Source: Planctomycetota bacterium (GTDB lineage: Bacteria; Planctomycetota; MHYJ01; WSZJ01; JACPWG01). From it: a stretch of DNA of 64,000 nucleotides. Below the pieces are notes generated by a model. That model did not search any database. It had not been told where the DNA came from and saw only the letters and a list, made by a program, of their open reading frames with translations. Shown here piece by piece: positions 6,642 through 48,599 of the stretch. Position 1 is the stretch's first letter. Every line of letters starts with the position of its first letter. Where the stretch lies: assembly GCA_016197205.1 (NCBI GenBank), contig JACPWG010000183.1:62001-126000 (forward strand). Direction: 5' to 3'. Position numbers and translations under genes: made by a program.

Positions 6642-8099
6642 ATGGACACTCTCTGGGCGTGGGCCGGCTTCCTGCTCCTCTTGTCCGGGGCGATTCCCTG
6701 GCTGCACGCAAAGCACCGCGCCCGGCGTTGGCGACGCGCGGGCGCGCACCTCGGGCTGTCCTTCGACGGGAGCTGGTGGGGGACCCCGCGTCGCTTGTCG
6801 GGGACGCTCGACGGCCTTGCCGTGCAGGTGGAAGTCCTCGAACAGTACTCCGGCGGGGCCTCCGGGAAGACTACGCGGTTTCGAGTGACCGGCCCGGACC
6901 TGCCGGCGGACCTGATGGTGCTCCCGCCGGGCGTGGCGCCGGAGGGGGCGGGCCGGGTCCGGACGGGGGACGAGGAGTTCGATGCCGGCGTCTTCGCGGC
7001 CGGTCCCGAACTCTCGACCATCGCCGCGCTCGATTTTCAAACGCGAAAGGACCTCGCCACGCTGGTCCGGCTGCGCGGCGGCGGGTTGCACAGCGGCGTG
7101 CTCCTCCTGCCCGTCGCCGGCGTGCCCACGGAGGTCGCGTCGATCCTCGAGACGGTGCGGTCGTCGGTCGCGGCGGTGCGGCGACTCTCGCTCGAGCGCA
7201 AGGGGGTGAGGGACCGCCTCGCCCACAACGCGACGCGCGATCCGAATCCCGGCGCGCGCCATCGGAACCTGGAGCTGCTCCTCGCCCACTATGCGGAGAG
7301 CCCGGTCACCGAGGCCGCCCTGCGCGCGGCCGTGCAGGACCTGGAGCCGCGCATCCGCCTGCTGGCCGGCACCCACCTCGGCCAGGCCGGATGGGATGCG
7401 CTGATCTCGCTCGTCGCGAAGGAAGACCTGCCCGATGAAGTGCGGTCCGGTGCCCTGCTCCATCTCGTCGGGGAGCTTCCCCGCGAGCGACTCGTCCCGC
7501 TCCTGGAGGGGCTCGCGGAGGGGCGGAGCGCCGCGGTCTTTCGGATCGGCGTGCGCTCGCTCACCCGGCTCGGGCGACCCCTCGGGTTCGATCGTCTGGT
7601 GGGGGCGCTGCGTGGCGCGCCGGCGGCGGTGGCCGCGGTCATCGCGGAGGAGCTGGGGGAAACCGGGGACCCGCGCGCGGAGGAGACGTCGATCCGGTTG
7701 CTCGGCCACGAGGACGCGCAGGTGAGGCTCCGGGCGGCGGCGACGCTGGGCCGGGTGGGGGGGCTGCGGGCGGTCGAGCCGCTGCGGGGCTGCGCCGGGG
7801 CGAGCGGGCGGCTTCTCGATGGCGAGCTGCGCCGCGCGATCGACGCGGCCGTGAAGGCCATCCACGCGCGGCTCGGCGTCGAGGGAGGCGTCGGCAGCCT
7901 CTCGCTGGCGGACCCGGGCCCAGGGGCCGGGACGCTCTCGCTGGCCACGGAGGAGGGCGCGCTGTCCCTGGCGCCGAAGGAAGCAGCCCGGGACGCCGCC
8001 TCGCGAGCGGTCGAAAAAAAGAGTGCAGGCGAAGGGCGGGCCGCGGCGGGCAGTACGGGCGCCGGGGAGCGGGGGGAGCCGCCGCCGCGTCAGACGTAG
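6642..8099 (+). CDS. Membrane-anchored HEAT-repeat protein
   Basis: The 485-residue protein starts with a transmembrane helix (WAWAGFLLLLSGAIPWL). A globular region of about 170 residues follows, then HEAT-type helical pairs at about residues 200-390 (for example AQVRLRAAATLGRVGGLRAV). The tail has three G-x-L-S-L-A repeats, GSLSLA, GTLSLA and GALSLA, spaced about 10 residues apart, then a charged low-complexity end. HEAT arrays bind proteins; no enzymatic motif is seen. It follows the Hsp70-like gene by 51 bases and may share its transcript. Its 3' end overlaps the convergent transporter gene by 10 bases. An in-frame TTG at 6621 is an alternative start. Confidence 0.8.
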   Translation: MDTLWAWAGFLLLLSGAIPWLHAKHRARRWRRAGAHLGLSFDGSWWGTPRRLSGTLDGLAVQVEVLEQYSGGASGKTTRFRVTGPDLPADLMVLPPGVAPEGAGRVRTGDEEFDAGVFAAGPELSTIAALDFQTRKDLATLVRLRGGGLHSGVLLLPVAGVPTEVASILETVRSSVAAVRRLSLERKGVRDRLAHNATRDPNPGARHRNLELLLAHYAESPVTEAALRAAVQDLEPRIRLLAGTHLGQAGWDALISLVAKEDLPDEVRSGALLHLVGELPRERLVPLLEGLAEGRSAAVFRIGVRSLTRLGRPLGFDRLVGALRGAPAAVAAVIAEELGETGDPRAEETSIRLLGHEDAQVRLRAAATLGRVGGLRAVEPLRGCAGASGRLLDGELRRAIDAAVKAIHARLGVEGGVGSLSLADPGPGAGTLSLATEEGALSLAPKEAARDAASRAVEKKSAGEGRAAAGSTGAGERGEPPPRQT

Positions 8100-10765: not shown

Positions 10766-12100
10766 TCACGGTCCGGCTCGGAGCGCCAGCACGTGCGCCC
10801 GCCAGCCCCCCTCGAGGTCGTTCGGATCGCAGCCGAAGGCCCTTCGAAACGCGGCCAGCCCGCCGCGTCCCCGGCGATACTGGTCCACGGCCGTGAGGAA
10901 GGCCCCGCGATAGCGTCCCTCCGAGCCGAGGAGAAGGAAGTGCACGAATCCCCACGCCGCGCCATAGTAGGCGGCGTGCTCCGGGCCGCCGAAGTCCTCC
11001 GCATCGGCGGCGACCAGCGCGTTCGGGCGGGGCGCCTTGCCGGCGCGCAGCATCTCCTGCAGCTCCGCGAGGCACCGGGCCATTTCCCCTCCACGCTGCA
11101 GTCGACCCACGAGGAGCGCGCCGTTCCGATACGTGCTGCCGCCGAAGAAATTCGCGAGCCCCTCGTCGATCCAGATCGTGCCCGCCTTGCGCTTCATCCG
11201 CTCCTCCAGGGCGGTCACGTGCAGGGCCAGCTCGGCCTGGGTCGGCGCCTCCACCACGACCGGCAGTTGAAGCTGTTCGCGGACGAGGAGGTGCGTGATT
11301 TCGTGCAGGAGGGTCTCCGGCACGCCTCGGTCGCGCTCGTCGGAGTCTTCGAGGGCGAGCACTTCGTTCTTGCCCAGATCGGCATAGCCGCGGAGGCACG
11401 CGCGACTTGACTCGGAGACGAACGCGATTTTCGGATAGGTGCGGGCCACGTAGGTCTGGAAGTCCTCCGCCCGGGTGAAAACCTGAACCGGGTAGGGCCC
11501 GGCCAGGGGTTTCGGTCGTAGCGCGGTGTCCAGCTCGGCGACGAAGGCTCGCACCAGGGCCTGCACGGGGCCTTGCAGCCGCTCCAGGAATTCAGGTCGG
11601 CCCGGGCTGCGGAGCAGAAACGGCGGGGAGGAGAGCTCGATCCAGCCGGGACCGGCCTGCGGGAGGGCACGCCCCTCGAGGCGGTCCAGTTCGAGCCGGG
11701 CGGCGCCGTGGGCGGGGTCGATGGCGAGGACCCTTTGCAGTTCGCGCCGTGCCTCCTCGCGGAGTCCCTTCGCCAGGCACCAACGGGCGAGCTCCAGATG
11801 CGCCTCGGTGTCGGTGAGTACGAGAGAGGACGCTCTCCTGCGGTACAGCTCCGCGGGCGAGTCCGCGCGCTCGATGGAGGCCACATCCCCGCGGGGCACG
11901 ACCATCTCCCCGAAAGGGAGCTGGACGCGCACCTCCGTCGCCGTCTCGGTGACCTGTCCCTCGAGGACCGCGCCGTTCTTCAGGCGAACGAGGTCCGCGC
12001 AGGCGCTCCGTGACCCGTCCGGAGCCGACAGGGCGAGCAACAGGGCGACCAGCCATGGGAATGCCCTGCCGGCGTCAAGAGGGGCTTTGCGGAAAAGCAT
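10766..12100 (-). CDS. Exported DUF1570-like zinc metalloprotease with N-terminal SH3-like domain
   Basis: The 444-residue protein has a signal peptide (PWLVALLLALSAP) and then a small beta domain (LVRLKNGAVLEGQVTE to VPRGDVASIE), a type common at the start of planctomycete exported proteins. A TPR-like helical pair follows, and then a gluzincin-like domain with HEITHL (the HExxH zinc motif). A downstream IDEGLANFFGG supplies the third, glutamate ligand. The family's substrates are unknown. Two ATGs (12106 and 12100) are possible; GGGAG sits 8 bases from the ATG at 12100, so that one is chosen. A consensus promoter lies at 12144-12172. Confidence 0.85.
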   Translation of the reverse strand: MLFRKAPLDAGRAFPWLVALLLALSAPDGSRSACADLVRLKNGAVLEGQVTETATEVRVQLPFGEMVVPRGDVASIERADSPAELYRRRASSLVLTDTEAHLELARWCLAKGLREEARRELQRVLAIDPAHGAARLELDRLEGRALPQAGPGWIELSSPPFLLRSPGRPEFLERLQGPVQALVRAFVAELDTALRPKPLAGPYPVQVFTRAEDFQTYVARTYPKIAFVSESSRACLRGYADLGKNEVLALEDSDERDRGVPETLLHEITHLLVREQLQLPVVVEAPTQAELALHVTALEERMKRKAGTIWIDEGLANFFGGSTYRNGALLVGRLQRGGEMARCLAELQEMLRAGKAPRPNALVAADAEDFGGPEHAAYYGAAWGFVHFLLLGSEGRYRGAFLTAVDQYRRGRGGLAAFRRAFGCDPNDLEGGWRAHVLALRAGP

Positions 12101-38963: not shown

Positions 38964-41900
38964 ATGAGCCTCGAGCTGATCTGCGAAGGTTGCCACCAGG
39001 CCTTGCACTTCCAGGACGCGGGCGGGACGGTCCCGGAGCGCTGCCCGAGGTGCGGCCGGGCACTGCCGCTCTTGCCGCACGAAACGCGAGGCGCCGAGGC
39101 CGCGTCGGTCGTACCGGATGCGACGGCCACGCGCGTGGATCCGGTCGGCTACGTGACGGTGCGCGACCCCGCGCCACCCGGACCCGCGGGCTCCTTTGCG
39201 GCGGTCGCTCCCGTTCGCTCGACGGACACGGAGCGTGGACGCACGCAGCTTCGCGACGCCGAGCACCCTCCTGCCGAGCCGGCCCCCGCGTTCGCGCCCA
39301 CGGCCTCCTTGCTTCCCGTGCCGGCGCCTCCGGACGTGCCCGCCCCTTCGCCCTCCGCCGTGACGCCGCCCCTCCTGGCGCCGGCCGTCTCCTCACACCC
39401 CTCCGCGGCCCAGGGCGGTTCTCCCTCCGATGGCGTTCCGGTCGAGTGGGCCGTCGGCGACGTGCTCCTTGACGTCTACGAAGTGACCGGGGTGCTCGGC
39501 GTCGGCGGCATGGGCAAGGTCTATCGCGTGCATCACCGCGACTGGGACCTCGACCTTGCGGTGAAGAGTCCCCATCCCGGCATCTTCCAGAGTCCGCGGG
39601 GCAAGGAGGAGTTCATTCGCGAGGCGGAAACCTGGGTGCACCTCGGCATCCATCCGCACACTGTAAGCTGCCACTACGTCCGCGTGCTGGGCGGGACGCC
39701 GCGCATCTTCGCGGAGTGCGTGGACGGCGGCAGCCTCGCGGACTGGATCCGCGACGAGCGGCTGTACGCGGCCGGGCCGGCGGGCGCGCTCGGCCGGATC
39801 CTCGACGTCGCCATCCAAATGGCCTGGGGGCTCTCGCACGCACACGACCAGGGGCTGATTCATCAAGACGTGAAGCCGGCGAACGTCATGATGTCGAACG
39901 AAGGCGAGGCGAAGGTCACCGACTTCAGCCTGGCACGCGCGCGCTGGGCGGCCGGCGATCGCGCAGGGCCGCGCCCGGACGGGGATCCTCTCGTGAGCGT
40001 CGGAGGCATGACGCCCGCGTACTGTTCGCCGGAGCAGGCGTCGCGCCAGCCGCTCTCGCCCGCCACCGACCTTTGGTCCTGGGCCGTGTCGGTGCTGCAG
40101 CTCTTTACCGGCAGGGTCGCGTGGGCCGCCGGTCCCTTCGCGCGCCCCGCGCTCGACGCGTGTCTGCTCGCGGCCGGCAGCGTCGGCCTCGCGCCTCCGT
40201 TGCCGGCCTCCGTCGCGGCGTTGCTCGCGAGGTGCTTGGAGCCGGATCCGGCCGCGCGCGGCGCGGGCTTCGGCCCCCTCGCCGACGAGCTGGAAAAGGT
40301 CTACGCCTCGGAGGTCGGCCGTCCCTACCCGCGCGTGCGACCGCGCGGCGTCCGGGGCCGCGGCGGGACGCTCAACAATCGCGCGATCTCGTCCCTCGAC
40401 CTCGGCGAAGCGGCGGAGGCGGAGCGCGTCCTCGGCGAGGCCCTGCGCGAGGAACCGGGTCTGCTCGAGGCGACGTACAATCTGGGCCTCCTGCGCTGGC
40501 GCCGTGGGCTCGTGACCGACGATGTTTTTCTGCGCGCGCTGGCGGCGACCGCCGGACCGGAGGCGGCGCTGTACCGCGGCTGGATCCAGCTCGAACGCGG
40601 GGACGCGGAGGCCGCGGTCCGCGAGCTGGAGGCCGCCGTGCTCGGGCTGCCGTCCCGCGCCGATGCGTGGAAGGCCCTGGGGACCGCGCTCTTTTCCCTC
40701 GGTCGGGCCGACGACGCGGCGCGTGCGCTGGCGGAGGCGCGTCGCCTGGGCGGCGGCGCCGTCGTGGTCGATGCGGAACAGCTCCGCCGTACGCTACCCG
40801 GCCGACGCATCGCGCCGCTCGAGCGGCTGTCGACGGGGGAGCGGCCGCTGAGCGCGGTTGCGCTTTCGGTCGACGGCCTCTCGGTGGCGGCGGGGGACGC
40901 GTCCGGCGTAGTGCGGGTCTGGCGGCTGCCGGGGGAGTTCGCGGTCCATACTTTCCGTGAGGGGGCGAAGGAGGAAGGAGCTGCGGAGCAGGCGACGGAA
41001 AAAAAAGCTGTGAAGGGCGCCGAAGAAGGGCGCTCGGTGTTGTCGCTGGCGTTCGTCGGGGCGCTGGAGAGGCTCGTGGCGGGCTTCGAAGATGGGACGG
41101 TGCGCGCGTGGGACTGCGCGAGCGGCGCGCGGGTCGCGACGCGTGCGCCGGACGGTGCGGAGGCCGCCTGCATGGCCTTCGCCGCGGGGACCGGTCGGGG
41201 CGTGTGCGGCGACCGGCGTGGCGGACTGCGGGAGTTGCCTTGGCCGGCGGCCGACGTCGTCGCCGAGGCCGGCGTCGCGGGCGCGCCTCGTCCAAAGGTA
41301 CTGCGTGCTCATCGCTGGCCGGTCGTGACCGTCGGGCTTTCCGCGGACGGGCGGGTGGCCGCGTCGGGGGCGCAGGACCGGCTGTTGAAGGTTTGGGAGC
41401 TGCGCACGGGGAGCGTCCTGGCGACCTTCGAAGGGCACGCGGGCGCGATCACGTCGGCGGCGCTGTCGGACGACGGCGGGACGGCGCTTTCCGGCTGCGA
41501 AGACGGCACGATGCGGGTGTGGGACGTCCGGATGCGCGCTTGCCTCCGGAGCCTGGACGCGCACGCGGGTCCGGTCTGGTCCGTGGCCTTCCTCCCCGGC
41601 GCACGTGGCATGGTCTCCGCGGGAAACGACGGCCTGGTGCGGCTGTGGAGCCTGGGGAGCGGGCGGTGCGTGCGGACGCTCGAGGCGCACGGGAGCGAGG
41701 CGATCGCGCTCGCCGTCTCGGCCGGCGCCGGTCGAGACGGGGCGCGGCTCGCCTCGGCGGGGCTGGACGGCAAGGTCCGCGTGTGGCAGGCCGGCGCGCG
41801 CGGGATCGCCGCGAGCCCGTACTTCCTGTGCCGGCCCGTCTCCGCCGAGCGGATGGTGAAGGACGAGCGGCTGTTCGGGGCGATCCTCGAGCACGCGCAG

Positions 41901-43127
41901 GAGTCGGCGCAGGCCGGCGATTTCCGGGAAGCGCACCGACTGGTGCGGTCGGCGCTCGCGCTGCCGGGTTTCGAGCGTTCTCCCGAGGGCATGCTCCGGC
42001 TTTCGAAGCTCGGGGGCGTGGCCGTGGCGACGCGCGTGCTCGGGGCGTGGGAGCGCGGAGACCTCGGATCGACCGGCGTCGCCTCGGCGGCGGTGGAGTT
42101 CGACTTCGATGCGCGACGCGCGTTCACGGGCGGCGCGGATGGCGTGCTTCGGAGTTGGGACCTTCTGAAAGGGGATTGTGCGCGGCCGTTCCCGCTGGCC
42201 GCCGGCCCGATTTCGCGGCTGGCGGCGTCCGCGTTCGGCTCGTGCGCCGTGGTGGCGGGGGAGGGGCGGGAGGTCTACAACGTGGATTCGCGGCGCGGCC
42301 TGATCCTGTCGAGCTGCGCCGGGCACACGGACCGGGTCACGGGCCTGGGGTTTATCCCTGAGGCGGACGCGCTGGTGACCGCGAGCCTGGACGGGACGCT
42401 CCGGTTCTGGGAGCTGTCCGGCGGCGGCTGCCGGCGGACCCTTCGCGCGCGGGACGGGGCGCTCGTGCACGTCGCGGTCTCGGGTGACGGCCGGCACCTG
42501 GTTTCGGTGGGCGCGAACGGCGGCGTGCTCGTCTGGGACGCGCACTCGGGCGCGCCGCTCTTGACCCTCGCGCGCGGGGGGCGGCCGTTCGAGCTGGCCG
42601 CGTTTTCGCCGGGCGGCGGCTACGTGCTCGGCGGGCGCACCGACGGGCGGCTGGTGCTCTGGGACCTGTCGACGGCGTCGGAGGCGGCGGTCTTTTGGGG
42701 GCCGGAGGCGCCTGTGCGCGCCTTTGCCTTCGCGCCCGGGGGCGGGCTCGCGTGCGTGGCGAGCGCGGACGGGACCGTGACCGTCTGGCGGCTGCCGGAA
42801 GGGAAGGAGTCAGCCGCCGTGCGCGCGCACTCAGGGAGCTTCGGTCGAGCGGCCTTCTCGCGGGACGGCCGGTTCTGCCTCGCCGCGCACGCGCGCGGGC
42901 TGAGCCTGCTGGTGCTCGACTGGGAGCTGGAGGTGGCGCCCCTGGAGCCGGAGGGCGGGCCGCCGGGGCGCGGGCCGGGTCGGGGAGTGGGCCGGCGCGA
43001 CGGCCGCCGCGACGCGCGGGAGCTGCCGGGTGCGCTGCGCGGCGACCTGCCGTGGCGTCCGCCGGGCGTGGCGGGCCGGGTGGCGCGGTGGCTGCGGCGG
43101 GGGTTCGCGGCGCGGGGGAGGGAGTAG
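38964..43127 (+). CDS. Serine/threonine protein kinase with TPR and WD40 repeats
   Basis: The 1387-residue protein has an N-terminal zinc ribbon (CEGCHQ ... CPRCGR), a Pro/Ala linker and a Hanks-type kinase domain at about 160-440. Kinase landmarks are GVLGVGGMGKVYRV (P-loop), AVKSP (Lys), LIHQDVKPANVMM, VTDFSLARA and PAYCSPEQA. Catalytic Asp residues are kept, but HRD is HQD and DFG is DFS. TPR-like repeats (about 465-600) and roughly a dozen WD40 repeats to residue 1320 follow, ending in a basic tail. No transmembrane helix is evident. It likely phosphorylates partners recruited through the WD40 propellers. The last 91 bases of the gene are duplicated at 48086-48176. Confidence 0.92.
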   Translation: MSLELICEGCHQALHFQDAGGTVPERCPRCGRALPLLPHETRGAEAASVVPDATATRVDPVGYVTVRDPAPPGPAGSFAAVAPVRSTDTERGRTQLRDAEHPPAEPAPAFAPTASLLPVPAPPDVPAPSPSAVTPPLLAPAVSSHPSAAQGGSPSDGVPVEWAVGDVLLDVYEVTGVLGVGGMGKVYRVHHRDWDLDLAVKSPHPGIFQSPRGKEEFIREAETWVHLGIHPHTVSCHYVRVLGGTPRIFAECVDGGSLADWIRDERLYAAGPAGALGRILDVAIQMAWGLSHAHDQGLIHQDVKPANVMMSNEGEAKVTDFSLARARWAAGDRAGPRPDGDPLVSVGGMTPAYCSPEQASRQPLSPATDLWSWAVSVLQLFTGRVAWAAGPFARPALDACLLAAGSVGLAPPLPASVAALLARCLEPDPAARGAGFGPLADELEKVYASEVGRPYPRVRPRGVRGRGGTLNNRAISSLDLGEAAEAERVLGEALREEPGLLEATYNLGLLRWRRGLVTDDVFLRALAATAGPEAALYRGWIQLERGDAEAAVRELEAAVLGLPSRADAWKALGTALFSLGRADDAARALAEARRLGGGAVVVDAEQLRRTLPGRRIAPLERLSTGERPLSAVALSVDGLSVAAGDASGVVRVWRLPGEFAVHTFREGAKEEGAAEQATEKKAVKGAEEGRSVLSLAFVGALERLVAGFEDGTVRAWDCASGARVATRAPDGAEAACMAFAAGTGRGVCGDRRGGLRELPWPAADVVAEAGVAGAPRPKVLRAHRWPVVTVGLSADGRVAASGAQDRLLKVWELRTGSVLATFEGHAGAITSAALSDDGGTALSGCEDGTMRVWDVRMRACLRSLDAHAGPVWSVAFLPGARGMVSAGNDGLVRLWSLGSGRCVRTLEAHGSEAIALAVSAGAGRDGARLASAGLDGKVRVWQAGARGIAASPYFLCRPVSAERMVKDERLFGAILEHAQESAQAGDFREAHRLVRSALALPGFERSPEGMLRLSKLGGVAVATRVLGAWERGDLGSTGVASAAVEFDFDARRAFTGGADGVLRSWDLLKGDCARPFPLAAGPISRLAASAFGSCAVVAGEGREVYNVDSRRGLILSSCAGHTDRVTGLGFIPEADALVTASLDGTLRFWELSGGGCRRTLRARDGALVHVAVSGDGRHLVSVGANGGVLVWDAHSGAPLLTLARGGRPFELAAFSPGGGYVLGGRTDGRLVLWDLSTASEAAVFWGPEAPVRAFAFAPGGGLACVASADGTVTVWRLPEGKESAAVRAHSGSFGRAAFSRDGRFCLAAHARGLSLLVLDWELEVAPLEPEGGPPGRGPGRGVGRRDGRRDARELPGALRGDLPWRPPGVAGRVARWLRRGFAARGRE
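43037..43127 (+). repeat. Left copy of a kinase 3'-end direct repeat
   Basis: The final 91 bases of the WD40 kinase gene, including its stop codon, match 48086-48176 without gaps. I count 10 differences over the last 87 positions. The two copies bracket the STAND/AbiEii cassette in the same orientation. Confidence 0.85.
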
Positions 43128-43198
43128 GCGGGGCGCCGGGCGCGAAACCGTTTCTCGGAGTGCTCCAGGGAGAGCCTTGTTGTGCCGAAGACCGGCTC

Positions 43199-43228
43199 TT
43201 GTCATTACCCCCTGGATCGAACTATACT
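43199..43228 (+). promoter_or_regulatory. Promoter of the STAND/AbiEii cassette
   Basis: TTGTCA (43199-43204), 18-base spacer, TATACT (43223-43228). The ATG used is at 43423, leaving a leader of about 190 bases; an in-frame ATG at 43291 would shorten it to about 55. Confidence 0.6.
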
Positions 43229-43422
43229 CTACCCTGGCATGGCGAGCACGATCTTCAGGTCGTCGATGGTAGGACGCTCTCGCGTTCTGCATGCATGCCG
43301 TCCGCGGTTCATCATCTGAGCTGAGCGCCGGTTGCAAGCGCGGCCGTTCGAGGACCGCAAGACGAAGCCCCTGCCGCCGCTCCAAAGGCCGGCGCAAAGA
43401 GACACAATCGAGGCAGACGGGA

Positions 43423-46400
43423 ATGCCCCTCGGCATCGGACAACCGATCTCCGGTCGAGAGTTCGAAAGAGAGACCTCCGCATGGACGGGGGAGCGTTTC
43501 GGCTTCCTCTGCAACTCCCTCGTCGCTGCCCTTTCCGAACGATGCTTCTCGTCGGACCTGTCTCTCACCTTCACCCACAATGCGGCCGATGCTGGGGTGG
43601 ACGCCGAGGTCACCGTGGAGCTTGGCCAATCCCCACCCGGCGAGGCCGGCCAGCTTCTCAGCCCCGGCTGGAACGTCTTCCAGTACAAGAAGCGTGACGT
43701 CCACGCCCGCGGGCGCCGGCAAGCGATCTCCGACCTGAAACGCAACGTCAAGGGCGCGCTCGCCGCCGTGCAAGCGCGGTGCGGCCGAACCCTCAGCCGC
43801 TACGCCCTCCTCACGAACATCGGCCTCGATCACCAGCACAAGACGGAGCTCAAGTCCGCCCTGCTATCCGGATACGCCCGGACGTCCCAAGTCGGAGTTG
43901 AGGTTTCCGGCGCGGAGGAAATCGCCCAGCTTCTCAATAATCGCCCACACCTGCGCGCCGCGTATTTCCAACCCTCCGCGTTCAGAACGTGGAAGTCCGC
44001 GCTTGACCTCCTCCTCCGCTCGAAATCCCTCGGTCGGGTCGTCCACCTCGAGGGGCGGAAGGAGTCGATCGAGCGTCTCGAAGCCATGCTGGCGGACGCC
44101 GGAGTTCGGGTGATTGTACTCTGGGGGCAGCATGACGTCGGGAAGAGCCGCCTCGCCCTGGAAGCAACCCGGACGCGACAGGACTCCGTGGTCGTGGCGA
44201 CAGCGCCCTTGGAGTTCTCCCCGGCGGAGCTTCGGGCCCTCCCGGGGGCTGACAGGGAGACGATCTGCGTTCTCGAGGATCCGGCCCGGGAGGACGTCGA
44301 GACCCTCATCCGGGAAGCCCTTGCGGAGCCCAAGCTCAAGCTGATCCTCACGGTTCCTGCTTTTGCCCATACGGTGGTACCTTCCTACGGGGCAGACACA
44401 AGAGTAAGGCTGCTCCAAGTCGAACCGCTACCCGAGAGCGAGTCCCGGCGGCTCATCGAGCAGGTGGATCCGCTCCTCCCCTTCGGTCTGGCCGAGTGGA
44501 TTGTCCGGCGGTCCGCTGGACTTCCTGGCCCGATCTTGGCTGCCGCCGCGCTGGGCGGAAAGTTGTATGCCGGGGCGCCGGACTTCGAGGTGGCGGTCGG
44601 CCGCGAGTATGCAACCCGGATCGCGAGCCTTCTTGGCCCGAGCGCCCTGAACGCGGCAAGCCTCGTTTCGGTGATGACCCAGACCGGAGTCGCCGGCGAG
44701 GCCGCACGGGAGCTTCAGCGGCTATGCGAAATCCTTCAGACGCCCCAGGCCGAAGTGACGAACGAGCTCGACCGTCTTGTCGACGCCGGCTTTCTGCGCC
44801 GGCGCGGTTCCTATGTCGAGGTGTCAATCCCCTTCCTCGCCAACCACTTGGCGAGTCAACTGGTGGCATCGCACGAGAGCGAGCTTTTGGCGCTCCTTGC
44901 CCTGCCCTCCGGCGCGGGGCTCCGGTTCCTGCGCCGTGTCGGAGGCCTCGCGCCAAGTTGCGCTCATGGCTTGTGGGACTTGCTCTTCTCCGATGGCGGC
45001 CTCTTTCATGGGCGACACTTGCTCGATAGTGTCTCGCACCTGAAGGCGGTGGCGGGGGCGCTTCCCGAAAGGACCCTCTCGGCCCTCCGGGCAGTCCTGA
45101 CCGGACTGAGTTTCGAGGAGCTTCGACGAATCGACCGAAGAGTGCGAGTCGAGCTGGTGTTCCTCCTTGAACAACCGCTCTTCCGAAAGAGCACGAGTGC
45201 GGAGGCGCTGCGGTTGATCGGCCTGCTCGCCAATGCCGAGGACGTTCGCGATTCGAAGCACGCGTCAGGTGTGTTCGCCGAGTGTTTTGCCACCGAGCAT
45301 CCCCAGTTTCCGCTGCCCTTGGAAGACCGCTTGCAGGTGCTGTGCGAATTCGCCGACTCCGCGGATCCCAGGCGGCGGCAACTCGCTTGTAGCGCGGTCG
45401 AAGAAGGCATGCCCGGCAATCGCGGGATGATCCGCCTCCGTTCGTCCGATGGTGCAAGGCCCTTTGACCCGCAGCCCGTCATGACGTACGCTGAACTGTG
45501 GGCCTATGCGCAGTCGCTGATGGAAGTGGCATGGCGAATGGCAGAGGGCTCGGACGACGCCTCCGCAGGGGCCCGGCGCGCGCTGCCCGGACTGACTCGA
45601 CGTCTAGGACTATACTGTCGCCCACGGCTGTGCGTCCCTTGGTTCAAGCGGTTGGTCGACGGAGCCGTTCAGGAACACCCGACGGTGGAGATCGCCCCAA
45701 TTGCCGACGCAATCGACGCGGTGGTTCGAGGGGTTCTCGACGCGCTAGCGCGGGAGGCATTGCCGGCGGAGGGCCGGGAGGAGCTGGTCGCGGACCAAGA
45801 CGCCCTCGCGACATTGGCGGGTCGGCTAAAGTCCGCCTCGTTCTCTGTCCGCCTTCGCCGTCGGCTCGGAAGTGACGCCTGGACGGGAGACGACCCGGCC
45901 GCGGACCAGGAGCTTAAGGCGCTCGCGGACGAGGCTGTAGCCCGGCCGGAATTGATGACGGCAGAGCTCTGGGAGTGGCTGCCGTCGATGGTCATCCATC
46001 ATGCCCCGGGCTTTGTCCGCCTCGTGGGGAAACGCGACACGAATCGGGTTCTTTGCGACAGGGTGGAGTCCGTCGGCGCCGCGTCGGACGGTGCGTACCT
46101 GTTCTCCTCGTACTGGTTGGGTTGGGTAGAGGTCGATCCGGTGGCCGCCGAGAAGCGCTTGGATGAGCTCGCCGCCAACGACCTGGTTGATGGGCGAGCC
46201 GTGGTGGGGGCGACCTGCACTCTGCCGGCGAGCTCGGCCGCCGTCGACAGGCTCATCGGCCAGGTTGGACGAGGGCGCGCGGATGCCGAATACGTGGCAC
46301 GGTCGATTGAGTGCCATCGATGGATGGAACCGCTCGCCCCGTGCGATGCGGAGCGCTTGTTCCGCGTGATCGCAGGGGAGGGGCTGCGCGAAGGCCGCCT

Positions 46401-47337
46401 CGTCGTCGAGCTCCTCGGTATGTGGCTGCATCTTCACAAAGCGCTGGGTCCCGAGCTCGAAAACCTCGCGTGGCAGACTCTGGAGGCCGATCCTCCCGTC
46501 GGCGGGCGTGCTGAAGAAGAATGGGCGTTCGATCAGCTTGCGGCGCATCTGGCGGAGCGCGATTCCAACCGCGCATTCCAGTTGCTTGAACGCCTCTTGG
46601 GCGGTGATCGACAGGACAAATGGAGTCCTGTTGACAATGAGTGCAAGGTCGAGTTTTGGCGGAAGCTGAAATCAGTGGATGCCGACCGCGCCATCGGCAT
46701 CCTCCTGCGTGCGGCTGAGAACGGGTCTGTGCACAGTTGGCTCTTGCGGAGGGCGATGCAACATCTGCTGGACCCGGTGCAGGACTCGGCGATTCTGCTT
46801 GGTCATGCCCAACGTACGGTGGCGGTGGCTCGGATGCTGGCGGAAGGAGTGGCCTTCGAGAGCGCAGGGTTCTGGGCTTTCGCAAGCGCCGTGACGGACC
46901 TTTACCCTGAGGATGACTCGCTCTGGCATGGCATCGCGACGCACTTGGAGGGATGGACTGGGGTCCGAGAAGGCTCGCTGTCCGCTTTCCTTGAGGAGCG
47001 GTGTCTCCAGGTCAGGGAAGCCATTCGTGCCCGATCGCTCTCGCCCGTATTGCGGAGGCGGCTCGACGGGTGGCTTGAGAGAGTCGAAGTGCGAATCGGC
47101 GAGCACTTGGTCTGGGAATACGACGAGGACATTGACGGGCTGATGGGCCACATCCACCAGAAGGACTCCCAGCGCATCTGGGCCATCGGCCGCATCTTGA
47201 AACACGCCCGGTTCGACGAAGTCCGCAAACTTCTGACGGTTGAGGACATCGAGGAGGCCCTGCCCCAGGTGGACCTGCCCAAGAAGCGGCGAGAGCTCCT
47301 GGAGGCTGCGCTCCCGATCTGGAAAAATGCCGGCTAG
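43423..47337 (+). CDS. Mrr-like nuclease - STAND NTPase - helical repeat protein (candidate antiphage, Avs-like)
   Basis: The 1304-residue protein has three parts. Residues 10-150 resemble an Mrr/PD-(D/E)XK nuclease: AADAGVDAEVTVEL with D60, then FQYKKRD with Q87-x-K89. Residues about 200-450 form a STAND-type P-loop NTPase: Walker A GQHDVGKS (235-242), Walker B ICVLED (281-286), then a winged-helix segment (ELDRLVDAGFLRRRGSY). The remaining 800 or so residues are helical repeats without recognisable sequence family. This nuclease-STAND-repeat order is that of Avs antiviral proteins, where the repeats sense phage proteins and the nuclease attacks DNA (family knowledge; role here inferred). 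The start at 43423 precedes the nuclease fold; 43291 would add a basic tail. The AbiEii gene overlaps its end by 11 bases. Confidence 0.85.
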   Translation: MPLGIGQPISGREFERETSAWTGERFGFLCNSLVAALSERCFSSDLSLTFTHNAADAGVDAEVTVELGQSPPGEAGQLLSPGWNVFQYKKRDVHARGRRQAISDLKRNVKGALAAVQARCGRTLSRYALLTNIGLDHQHKTELKSALLSGYARTSQVGVEVSGAEEIAQLLNNRPHLRAAYFQPSAFRTWKSALDLLLRSKSLGRVVHLEGRKESIERLEAMLADAGVRVIVLWGQHDVGKSRLALEATRTRQDSVVVATAPLEFSPAELRALPGADRETICVLEDPAREDVETLIREALAEPKLKLILTVPAFAHTVVPSYGADTRVRLLQVEPLPESESRRLIEQVDPLLPFGLAEWIVRRSAGLPGPILAAAALGGKLYAGAPDFEVAVGREYATRIASLLGPSALNAASLVSVMTQTGVAGEAARELQRLCEILQTPQAEVTNELDRLVDAGFLRRRGSYVEVSIPFLANHLASQLVASHESELLALLALPSGAGLRFLRRVGGLAPSCAHGLWDLLFSDGGLFHGRHLLDSVSHLKAVAGALPERTLSALRAVLTGLSFEELRRIDRRVRVELVFLLEQPLFRKSTSAEALRLIGLLANAEDVRDSKHASGVFAECFATEHPQFPLPLEDRLQVLCEFADSADPRRRQLACSAVEEGMPGNRGMIRLRSSDGARPFDPQPVMTYAELWAYAQSLMEVAWRMAEGSDDASAGARRALPGLTRRLGLYCRPRLCVPWFKRLVDGAVQEHPTVEIAPIADAIDAVVRGVLDALAREALPAEGREELVADQDALATLAGRLKSASFSVRLRRRLGSDAWTGDDPAADQELKALADEAVARPELMTAELWEWLPSMVIHHAPGFVRLVGKRDTNRVLCDRVESVGAASDGAYLFSSYWLGWVEVDPVAAEKRLDELAANDLVDGRAVVGATCTLPASSAAVDRLIGQVGRGRADAEYVARSIECHRWMEPLAPCDAERLFRVIAGEGLREGRLVVELLGMWLHLHKALGPELENLAWQTLEADPPVGGRAEEEWAFDQLAAHLAERDSNRAFQLLERLLGGDRQDKWSPVDNECKVEFWRKLKSVDADRAIGILLRAAENGSVHSWLLRRAMQHLLDPVQDSAILLGHAQRTVAVARMLAEGVAFESAGFWAFASAVTDLYPEDDSLWHGIATHLEGWTGVREGSLSAFLEERCLQVREAIRARSLSPVLRRRLDGWLERVEVRIGEHLVWEYDEDIDGLMGHIHQKDSQRIWAIGRILKHARFDEVRKLLTVEDIEEALPQVDLPKKRRELLEAALPIWKNAG

Positions 47338-48010
47338 TATCCTGACCCCCTTGCAAAAGCTGGTGCTGGAGCGACTCTTCGACTCCGGGTTGGGGGATCG
47401 CGGTTACTTCCTGAGCGGTGGAACAGCGTTGGCAGAGTTCTACCTCCAGCACCGCCTGTCGGACGATCTCGACATCTTCACACGGAAGCCGAACCTGTCG
47501 GCGGAAGACCTCGAGCTGGTTCGGCACGTATTCGAGGAGCTCGGACTCGAGACGAATCGTGAGAGGAGGGTACCGAGCTTCGCCGAGTACTTCGTCTGGC
47601 AGCCGGGCTCCCCTGACAAGCTGAAGCTTCAGTTCGTAGGCGGCGAGGTCCCCGCGACGATGGCCCCGCCCTTCATGCGGGGGACGATCGTCGTGGACTC
47701 GCTGGAGGACATCGCGGTCAACAAGGTCTGCACCATCGTGGACAGATTCGAAGCCAAGGACTTCGTTGATCTCCACTTCATCCTGAGAGAGACCCGGTTC
47801 CAACTGGACTACCTGCTCGCCCGGGCCAGTGAGAAGGACATGGACGTCGAGGGCGAGGAAGGCCAACTGACGTTTGCGACTTCGCTGCTTCGTGTGCGGG
47901 ATCTGGCTCAGTTGCCTCGGATGATCAAGCCGCTCACGCTGGAGCAGCTTCGCGTGGATTTGACTCCCCGTGCTGAGGAACTCATCCGCCGCCTTCGCCC
48001 GCGGGGCTAG
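47327..48010 (+). CDS. AbiEii/AbiGii-type nucleotidyltransferase toxin-like protein
   Basis: The 227-residue protein has the DNA polymerase-beta-like signature of AbiEii toxins: YFLSGGTALAEF (about residues 27-38), then LSDDLDIF with acidic D46, D47 and D49. It continues with VDSLEDIAVNKVCTIVDRFEAKDFVDLHFI, the conserved lysine and Asp-Phe-x-Asp region. AbiEii transfers nucleotides to RNA (tRNA acceptor ends or GTP-binding in the original AbiE) and is usually paired with the AbiEi antitoxin. No AbiEi homologue is present; the partner is instead the overlapping STAND protein gene. The ATG at 47327 lies 8 bases inside the upstream gene's end, so the two are co-translated. Confidence 0.87.
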   Translation: MPASILTPLQKLVLERLFDSGLGDRGYFLSGGTALAEFYLQHRLSDDLDIFTRKPNLSAEDLELVRHVFEELGLETNRERRVPSFAEYFVWQPGSPDKLKLQFVGGEVPATMAPPFMRGTIVVDSLEDIAVNKVCTIVDRFEAKDFVDLHFILRETRFQLDYLLARASEKDMDVEGEEGQLTFATSLLRVRDLAQLPRMIKPLTLEQLRVDLTPRAEELIRRLRPRG

Positions 48011-48085
48011 TGCGCAATTGGTGCCAGGGTGCACACCCGCACAGTGTCGGGGGCGCTTCCCTCGGCAAGCGAGTGTTGCTGCGGA

Positions 48086-48176
48086 GCGCGGCGACCGGCC
48101 GTGGCGTCCGCCGGGCGTGGCGGGTCGGGTGGTGCGGTGGCTGCGGCGGGGATTCGGCTCGCGGGGGTCGGCGTAG
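48086..48176 (+). pseudogene. Remnant of a WD40 kinase paralogue 3' end (right copy of the direct repeat)
   Basis: The segment translates as RPWRPPGVAGRV, then RWLRRGF, and ends in a stop at the same position as the kinase gene's own end. Alignment with 43037-43127 is gapless. Differences are spread as expected of diverged paralogues, not of a recent duplication. No start codon or kinase sequence precedes it, so it is a gene relic. It marks the right boundary of the cassette. Confidence 0.75.
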
Positions 48177-48215
48177 GGCCCTGCGGGCCCGGCGGTGAGG
48201 CGAGGTCGGAGGGGG

Positions 48216-48238
48216 AAAAAAAATGGGGCGTCGCCCCC
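48216..48238 (-). terminator. Terminator of the zinc-ribbon / TPR / signal-peptidase-like operon
   Basis: On the minus strand a short stem (GGGGC/GCCCC, 48237-48233 with 48229-48225, loop of 3) is followed by A and eight T (complement of A 48216-48223), 17 bases past the stop at 48255. The stem is short but the T-run is long. Confidence 0.55.
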
Positions 48239-48254
48239 GGCGGCGGTGCCGCCG

Positions 48255-48599
48255 CTAATTGCCCGCGGGCGGCGCGAGCACGGCCTTCACGGGCGGCTCG
48301 GTGTAGTAGTAGCGATAGGTGGAGTAGCTGGCCGTCAGGCCGCTGGAGGGGACTTCGACAGGCTTCGGCCAGCCGCTCTTGCCGAAGGTGTACTTGATGG
48401 TACACGAGAGGAGGAAGGCAGCGATCGCGATGACGAGAAAGCTGCGCATCTGCTCCTCGAGGTCGTTCGCGTCCCGGAACTCAGCCTTCGAGAGCAGGGA
48501 GCCCTCCACCTCCGAGCGCACGTAGTGGATCTTCTCGCCGCAGCGGCGGCAGAAGGCCTCGGTGGTGGGATTGTCGAACTCGCAGCTAGGGCACTTCAT
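48255..48599 (-). CDS. Zinc-ribbon single-pass membrane protein
   Basis: The 114-residue protein starts with a treble CxxC...CxxC zinc ribbon (MKCPSCEFDN and FCRRCGEKI). A helix of mixed charge follows, then a transmembrane segment (SFLVIAIAAFLLSCTIKY, about 53-70) and a Tyr-rich external tail. It is 9 bases downstream of the TPR protein gene, in the operon with the signal-peptidase-like protein. Function unknown; the ribbon probably mediates protein contacts. Confidence 0.78.
   Translation of the reverse strand: MKCPSCEFDNPTTEAFCRRCGEKIHYVRSEVEGSLLSKAEFRDANDLEEQMRSFLVIAIAAFLLSCTIKYTFGKSGWPKPVEVPSSGLTASYSTYRYYYTEPPVKAVLAPPAGN

Follow-up and report, generated by a model that had tools for sequence, protein, structure and literature searches.

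The window analyzed here, a stretch of 64,000 nucleotides (nt) from the 9.1-Mb genome of a Planctomycetota bacterium, contains two overlapping genes that appear, with a probability of roughly 0.55, to form a mobile two-gene antiphage module. In this module a STAND (Avs/NLR-like) nuclease would carry the antitoxin of a type IV-like AbiEii toxin as its own C-terminal domain, and activation or destruction of the STAND protein would free the toxin. The large gene (43423..47337) encodes a STAND protein of 1304 residues, with a PD-(D/E)xK-like N-terminus, a STAND NTPase, a sensor solenoid, and a C-terminal partner domain. The second gene (47327..48010) encodes a nucleotidyltransferase of the AbiEii family (227 residues), identified by its Pfam match and with motifs I–IV intact. 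These genes and all features described below are on the forward (+) strand. The two reading frames overlap by exactly 11 nt (ATGCCGGCTAG, 47327..47337, read directly from the sequence), an overlap that may couple the translation of the STAND and AbiEii genes. The length of the large protein and the overlap are both as given in the initial annotation. The ATG at 43423 is assigned as the start of the large gene because all the homologs begin at the same residue.

The gene pair is conserved in other genomes. The first full-length relative of the large protein, from another Planctomycetota genome, shares 46% sequence identity with it and is followed by AbiEii with an identical 11-nt overlap. When each species is represented by a single genome, a scan finds 12 relatives of the large protein. 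Nine loci (the window and L036–L043) have a full-length large gene, the C-terminal domain, and a readable downstream end, and the counts given here are for these loci, with the overlaps measured from the start of AbiEii in the protein alignment. AbiEii is the next gene in 9/9 of them, and the overlap is 11 nt in 9/9. The nine loci span Planctomycetota, Elusimicrobia, Acidobacteria, Deltaproteobacteria, and Nitrospira (the source genomes of L037 and L043 are both listed as Planctomycetota bacterium). The pairing is not due to chance, as every readable locus has both genes and an overlap of 11 nt. The association of the large protein with AbiEii, on which the initial annotation had let its proposal depend, is thus borne out.

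The pairwise distances among the STAND proteins are correlated with those among the AbiEii proteins (Mantel r of 0.80, p of 1e-4). For the closest pairs, where the synonymous substitution rate (dS) is unsaturated, the nonsynonymous rate (dN) is well below dS in both genes, indicating purifying selection. The mean identity is highest for the C-terminal tail of the large protein (56%) and AbiEii (53%), and lowest for the sensor (37%). The STAND and AbiEii genes are a conserved, co-inherited module.

Two homologs of the large protein, in L044 (Scytonema) and L046 (frameshifted), end before the tail, and no AbiEii gene is present in their available flanks. When the tree is rooted with PD-lambda-4A-like relatives, the two form a group (0.84) within the family. 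This position would fit a single joint loss of the tail and AbiEii, although the root is on a long branch. Two genes on the 3′ side of the Scytonema homolog (L044, 11290-12035) resemble, by eye, XisH and XisI.

The tail of the large protein is an antitoxin-like AbiEii-partner domain (residues 1227-1304, about 78 residues; 47101..47334), as defined by hhalign, profile searches, and the structural model. The second AbiEii gene of the source genome (C196, L049 1378-2413, 224.8-225.7 kb) has a small, stand-alone upstream partner that belongs to the same family as the tail. Further AbiEii loci likewise have small, tail-like upstream proteins. In one locus (L026/L050) the protein on the 5′ side of AbiEii has 161 residues, and only its C-terminal part resembles the last ~75 residues of the large protein. 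With hhalign, a profile of three non-fused partners matches the tails of three fusions with a probability of 97.2 and an expectation value (E) of 4.7e-11. Searched against 199 genomes, the same stand-alone-only profile recovers the tail of the large protein and those of two relatives (E values of 1.7e-7, 1.2e-7, and 8.4e-6). An enlarged profile finds 26 partner-domain sites in 392 genomes, 20 of which are followed by an AbiEii match in the same direction. The homology of the tail to small proteins preceding AbiEii-type toxins elsewhere accounts for the coupling of the STAND and AbiEii genes.

The 17 members of the partner domain that were scanned against Pfam match no family, and the assignment of the tail to a known Pfam domain (DUF6922 was first considered) was dropped for this reason. 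The copy of the partner domain at C60 of the source genome (L112) has no AbiEii beside it. In L055, L057, L058, and L047 the partner domain is kept and AbiEii is broken or missing, with the catalytic half deleted or a stop codon, as if the toxin were able to decay while the partner domain stays. L057 was weighed for structure prediction as a natural fusion of partner and AbiEii, and was rejected as its catalytic half is missing.

The 227-residue protein matches the AbiEii family (PF08843) with an E value of 1.8e-15 and a score of 58 bits, above the curated cut-off of 22.5, in agreement with its original identification as an AbiEii-type nucleotidyltransferase. It contains four motifs, Gly31-Gly32 (motif I), Arg43 and Asp47-x-Asp49 (II), Lys133...Arg140 (III), and Lys144-Asp145-x-x-Asp148 (IV), which are near-invariant among 13 sequences. 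Mutants of the Streptococcus agalactiae protein have established that motifs I (hGG), II (R...DhD), III (K...R), and IV (+DxxD) are needed for the toxicity of AbiEii (PMC3985639). A search for AbiEi (COG5340-type, with a winged helix-turn-helix (wHTH)) finds no match in the large protein or in the partner domains. The initial annotation had stated that AbiEii lacks its usual AbiEi antitoxin here. This holds for AbiEi itself, while the large protein carries an antitoxin-like partner, fused at its C-terminus. MenA1, an antitoxin of 68 residues, blocks the related toxin MenT1 through direct binding (PMC10435456). Judging from the gene order and this analogy, we infer an antitoxin role for the tail.

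The N-terminal domain of the large protein (residues 1-204; 43423..44034) is probably a PD-(D/E)xK nuclease, as predicted from its conservation, its model, and a weak match to Mrr_cat. Residues Asp56, Gly58, Asp60, Gly82, Gln87, Lys89, and Pro175 are invariant among 15 homologs, three of them distant, and Asp60, Gln87, and Lys89 form the D...(D/E/Q)xK triad of PD-(D/E)xK nucleases. The order of the secondary structure elements in the model (helix-helix-strand-strand-strand-helix-strand-helix-strand; predicted local distance difference test score of 78.8) fits such a nuclease. A profile of the domain aligns DGGVD...QxK with the same motif in Mrr_cat, with a weak E value of 0.0038; the best E value among 20 column shuffles, used as a control, is 0.13. 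The Cap4 nuclease family (PF14130), chosen as a yardstick, has no match in 149 genomes or in the controls, and no comparison was drawn.

The STAND NTPase core (residues 205-420; 44035..44682) follows the N-terminal domain and has a five-stranded P-loop core in the model. It contains the Walker A (Gly235-x-His-x-x-Gly-Lys241-Ser) and Walker B (...Glu285-Asp286) motifs and a Gly-x-Pro motif at 366-368. The motifs listed in the initial annotation (D60, Q87-x-K89, GQHDVGKS at 235-242, and ICVLED at 281-286) are each present in the large protein. AAA_16 is matched in 7 of 10 homologs of the large protein, with the best E value being 2.6e-6. The core is followed by a wHTH (residues 424-467; 44692..44823), with weak HTH matches and with helices and a beta hairpin in the model. 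Next is a HEAT-like helical solenoid (residues 481-1224; 44863..47094), recognized in the model and with Foldseek, which is the putative sensor of the phage trigger. The stretch of about 800 residues noticed earlier as helical repeats corresponds to this region, residues ~480-1224 being modeled as an all-α solenoid. A linker of low confidence at residues 1226-1238 leads to a small helical domain.

A Foldseek search with residues 200-1304 finds Avs4 (E of 1.4e-5) and EfAvs5 (E of 2e-4), as well as SAMD9, NLRP9, and HEAT-repeat proteins. These matches have low TM-scores, which is to be expected of long superhelices. Pfam and NCBIfam scans of the large protein give nothing significant, and a sequence search of the PDB with it finds no match. 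An AAA_16-type P-loop NTPase, a wHTH, and C-terminal repeats are all present, as in STAND proteins of the Avs/NLR type. These features and the two Avs matches agree with the earlier assignment of the protein to the STAND class.

The module is bracketed by a direct repeat of 98 nt. Copy 1 (43031..43128) is the 3′ end, including the stop codon, of the upstream neighbor, a gene encoding a protein kinase that has a long WD40 region (38964-43127). Copy 2 (48080..48177), 88% identical, is beyond AbiEii on the far side of the module. No other full copy is present in the 9.1-Mb genome. The interval of 43128-48085 delimited in the initial annotation encloses both genes; it is slightly wider than they are and about equal to the span between the repeat copies. 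In L040, a repeat of 56 nt (82% identity; 6867-6922 and 11672-11727) brackets the module and is the 3′ end of the downstream gene. A check of 16 other loci finds clear flanking repeats in L040 and L053 (a stand-alone pair) only. A 201-nt repeat in L037 extends to the end of the contig and is probably an assembly effect. The third-position GC content is 0.76 and 0.80 for the genes of the module, compared with 0.87-0.90 for their neighbors. The repeats at gene ends and the lower third-position GC suggest that the module was acquired through insertion at the ends of genes, and no integrase is seen between the repeats. The only sigma-70-like promoter match in 43100-48300 by a consensus scan is located 5′ of the large gene (43199..43228), and it is a consensus match only. 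WD40 paralogs are numerous in the source genome (27 matches).

Defense genes are found next to some of the homologs, including type I restriction genes (L039), an HmaA/DrmD-like helicase (L045), and HEC-01A (L047). More distant relatives adjoin pAgo-like, HEC-01A, and PDC-M54A genes, and some of them are plasmid-borne. A search of viral contigs with the large protein alone finds no relative, and one with query A7 finds only one partial relative. The latter, on an IMG/VR viral contig (L086, 2206-3348), is related to the large protein in the sensor region. A search of plasmids with the large protein finds no match.

The most likely mechanism of the module can be outlined. In the resting cell, the tail of the STAND protein would bind and silence AbiEii, which would be made in step with it by virtue of the 11-nt overlap. 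Recognition of a phage component by the solenoid would lead to oligomerization of the STAND part, and the activated N-terminal nuclease would cut nucleic acid. Once the tail is rearranged, or the STAND protein is destroyed by the phage, AbiEii would be freed and growth would stop, probably through the modification of tRNA or another RNA in the manner of MenT. We infer the nuclease activity, the neutralization by the tail, the triggering by phage, and the RNA target. That the protein is an NLR-type receptor in which a single recognition event both activates the nuclease and frees a tRNA/RNA-modifying toxin from the antitoxin tail, with destruction of the receptor freeing it as well, is proposed tentatively.

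Several observations weigh against an antiphage module with a fused antitoxin. Among the 26 partner-domain sites in the 392 genomes, six have no adjoining AbiEii match, and a few of the 20 sites with such a match are truncated. In the classical AbiE system the antitoxin and the toxin do not bind each other (PMC3985639), and as a result binding of AbiEii by the tail is not assured. For the N-terminal domain, the claim of an Mrr-like nuclease has motif-level support from the invariant residues, the order of strands and helices, and the weak Mrr_cat match, but the fold is not confirmed, as a Foldseek search of the PDB with the model finds no match below an E value of 0.001. The candidacy as an antiphage system gains from the defense genes near some homologs, but no obvious defense island surrounds the module in the window.

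Other arrangements of the same parts can be envisaged. In a guard or addiction arrangement, the nuclease-STAND protein would be the sole defense effector, and the AbiEii toxin held by the tail would kill or arrest the cell if the STAND protein is lost, shut off, or degraded by phage. The role of the toxin would then be to guard the defense gene, and the sensor would not switch it on. This is somewhat unlikely. With the antitoxin located within the defense protein, loss of the STAND protein would indeed free the toxin, and the partner-only remnants without intact AbiEii (L104/L057, L105/L058, and L047), the mobile appearance of the module, and the plasmid stabilization attributed to AbiE (PMC3985639) are all consistent with it. 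However, such an arrangement does not require the tail to be at the end of the sensor, and the homologs in L044 and L046 do without the tail. It is also conceivable, if distinctly unlikely, that the tail serves as a tether for docking rather than as an antitoxin, and that AbiEii is a non-toxic accessory enzyme that arms or disarms the nuclease by modifying the STAND protein or making a signal. The obligate pairing and the co-loss fit an accessory enzyme equally well, and no report of tests on the stand-alone partners was found. On the other hand, all four toxicity motifs of AbiEii are intact, and the stand-alone partners and their AbiEii proteins have the look of toxin-antitoxin pairs. Finally, the transferase could be a passenger that plays no part in defense, added as an extra gene to a PD-lambda-4-type system. 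The weak PADLOC match of the large protein to PD-Lambda-4_A and the broader relatives without AbiEii point in this direction. Nonetheless, joint conservation of AbiEii and the fused tail extends over five phyla with an unvarying overlap, these two being the most conserved segments, and a passenger role is very improbable.

Phage defense is usually divided into separate kinds, with STAND immune receptors in one and toxin-antitoxin pairs in another, and the conserved fusion joins both. With a fused antitoxin, the STAND protein would offer a concrete physical means of placing a toxin under the control of a pattern-recognition receptor. If true, the result would be a two-layer, tamper-proof immune module, with a nuclease and a released toxin. 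The tail and its stand-alone relatives define a small family of AbiEii partners without a Pfam entry, which are candidate antitoxins and may account for further AbiEii genes with no apparent antitoxin.

Each part of the module is known in kind from other systems. As in the type IV toxin-antitoxin system AbiE (AbiEi-AbiEii), an AbiEii/DUF1814 transferase is the second gene and is tightly coupled to an upstream partner. In comparison, AbiEi is a COG5340 protein with a wHTH and a C-terminal domain, whereas the partner here is a domain of ~78 residues from another family, fused to a STAND protein of 1200 residues. The pair resembles MenA1-MenT1 of Mycobacterium tuberculosis in its arrangement, where the AbiEii-like transferase likewise has a small antitoxin other than AbiEi (PMC10435456). 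However, MenA1 stands alone and the partner here is fused to a sensor.

The large protein resembles Avs proteins (Avs4 and EfAvs5) in having an N-terminal effector, a STAND NTPase, and a helical-repeat sensor, with the Foldseek matches described above, and differs from them in its C-terminal antitoxin-like domain and its partner toxin gene. A PADLOC scan of the large protein matches no Avs model, and PD-Lambda-4_A is its sole match (E of 2.3e-6), limited to residues 427-721. PD-lambda-4 is a system from Vassallo et al. 2022. Broader relatives of the large protein match PD-Lambda-4_A over ~1000 residues. The large protein itself is distantly related to PD-lambda-4A. The AbiEii protein matches AbiEii models of PADLOC and no PD-Lambda-4 model, and, with a Vibrio relative as the guide, no match for PD-lambda-4B is found in E. 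coli. PD-Lambda-4_A-like STAND proteins of ~1270 residues are also present on cyanobacterial, haloarchaeal, Vibrio, and Rhizobium plasmids (L063, L064, L062, L018, and L021), where they are annotated merely as hypothetical or ATP-binding proteins.

No description of a STAND protein with an AbiEii-partner domain was found in the open-access papers of an incomplete library. CapRel and other fused toxin-antitoxin sensors couple phage sensing to toxin release in a single polypeptide. In the module described here, it is the antitoxin rather than the toxin that would be fused to the sensor. Moreover, the sensor here belongs to the STAND NTPases and has a putative nuclease of its own, and the toxin is made separately, as a transferase.
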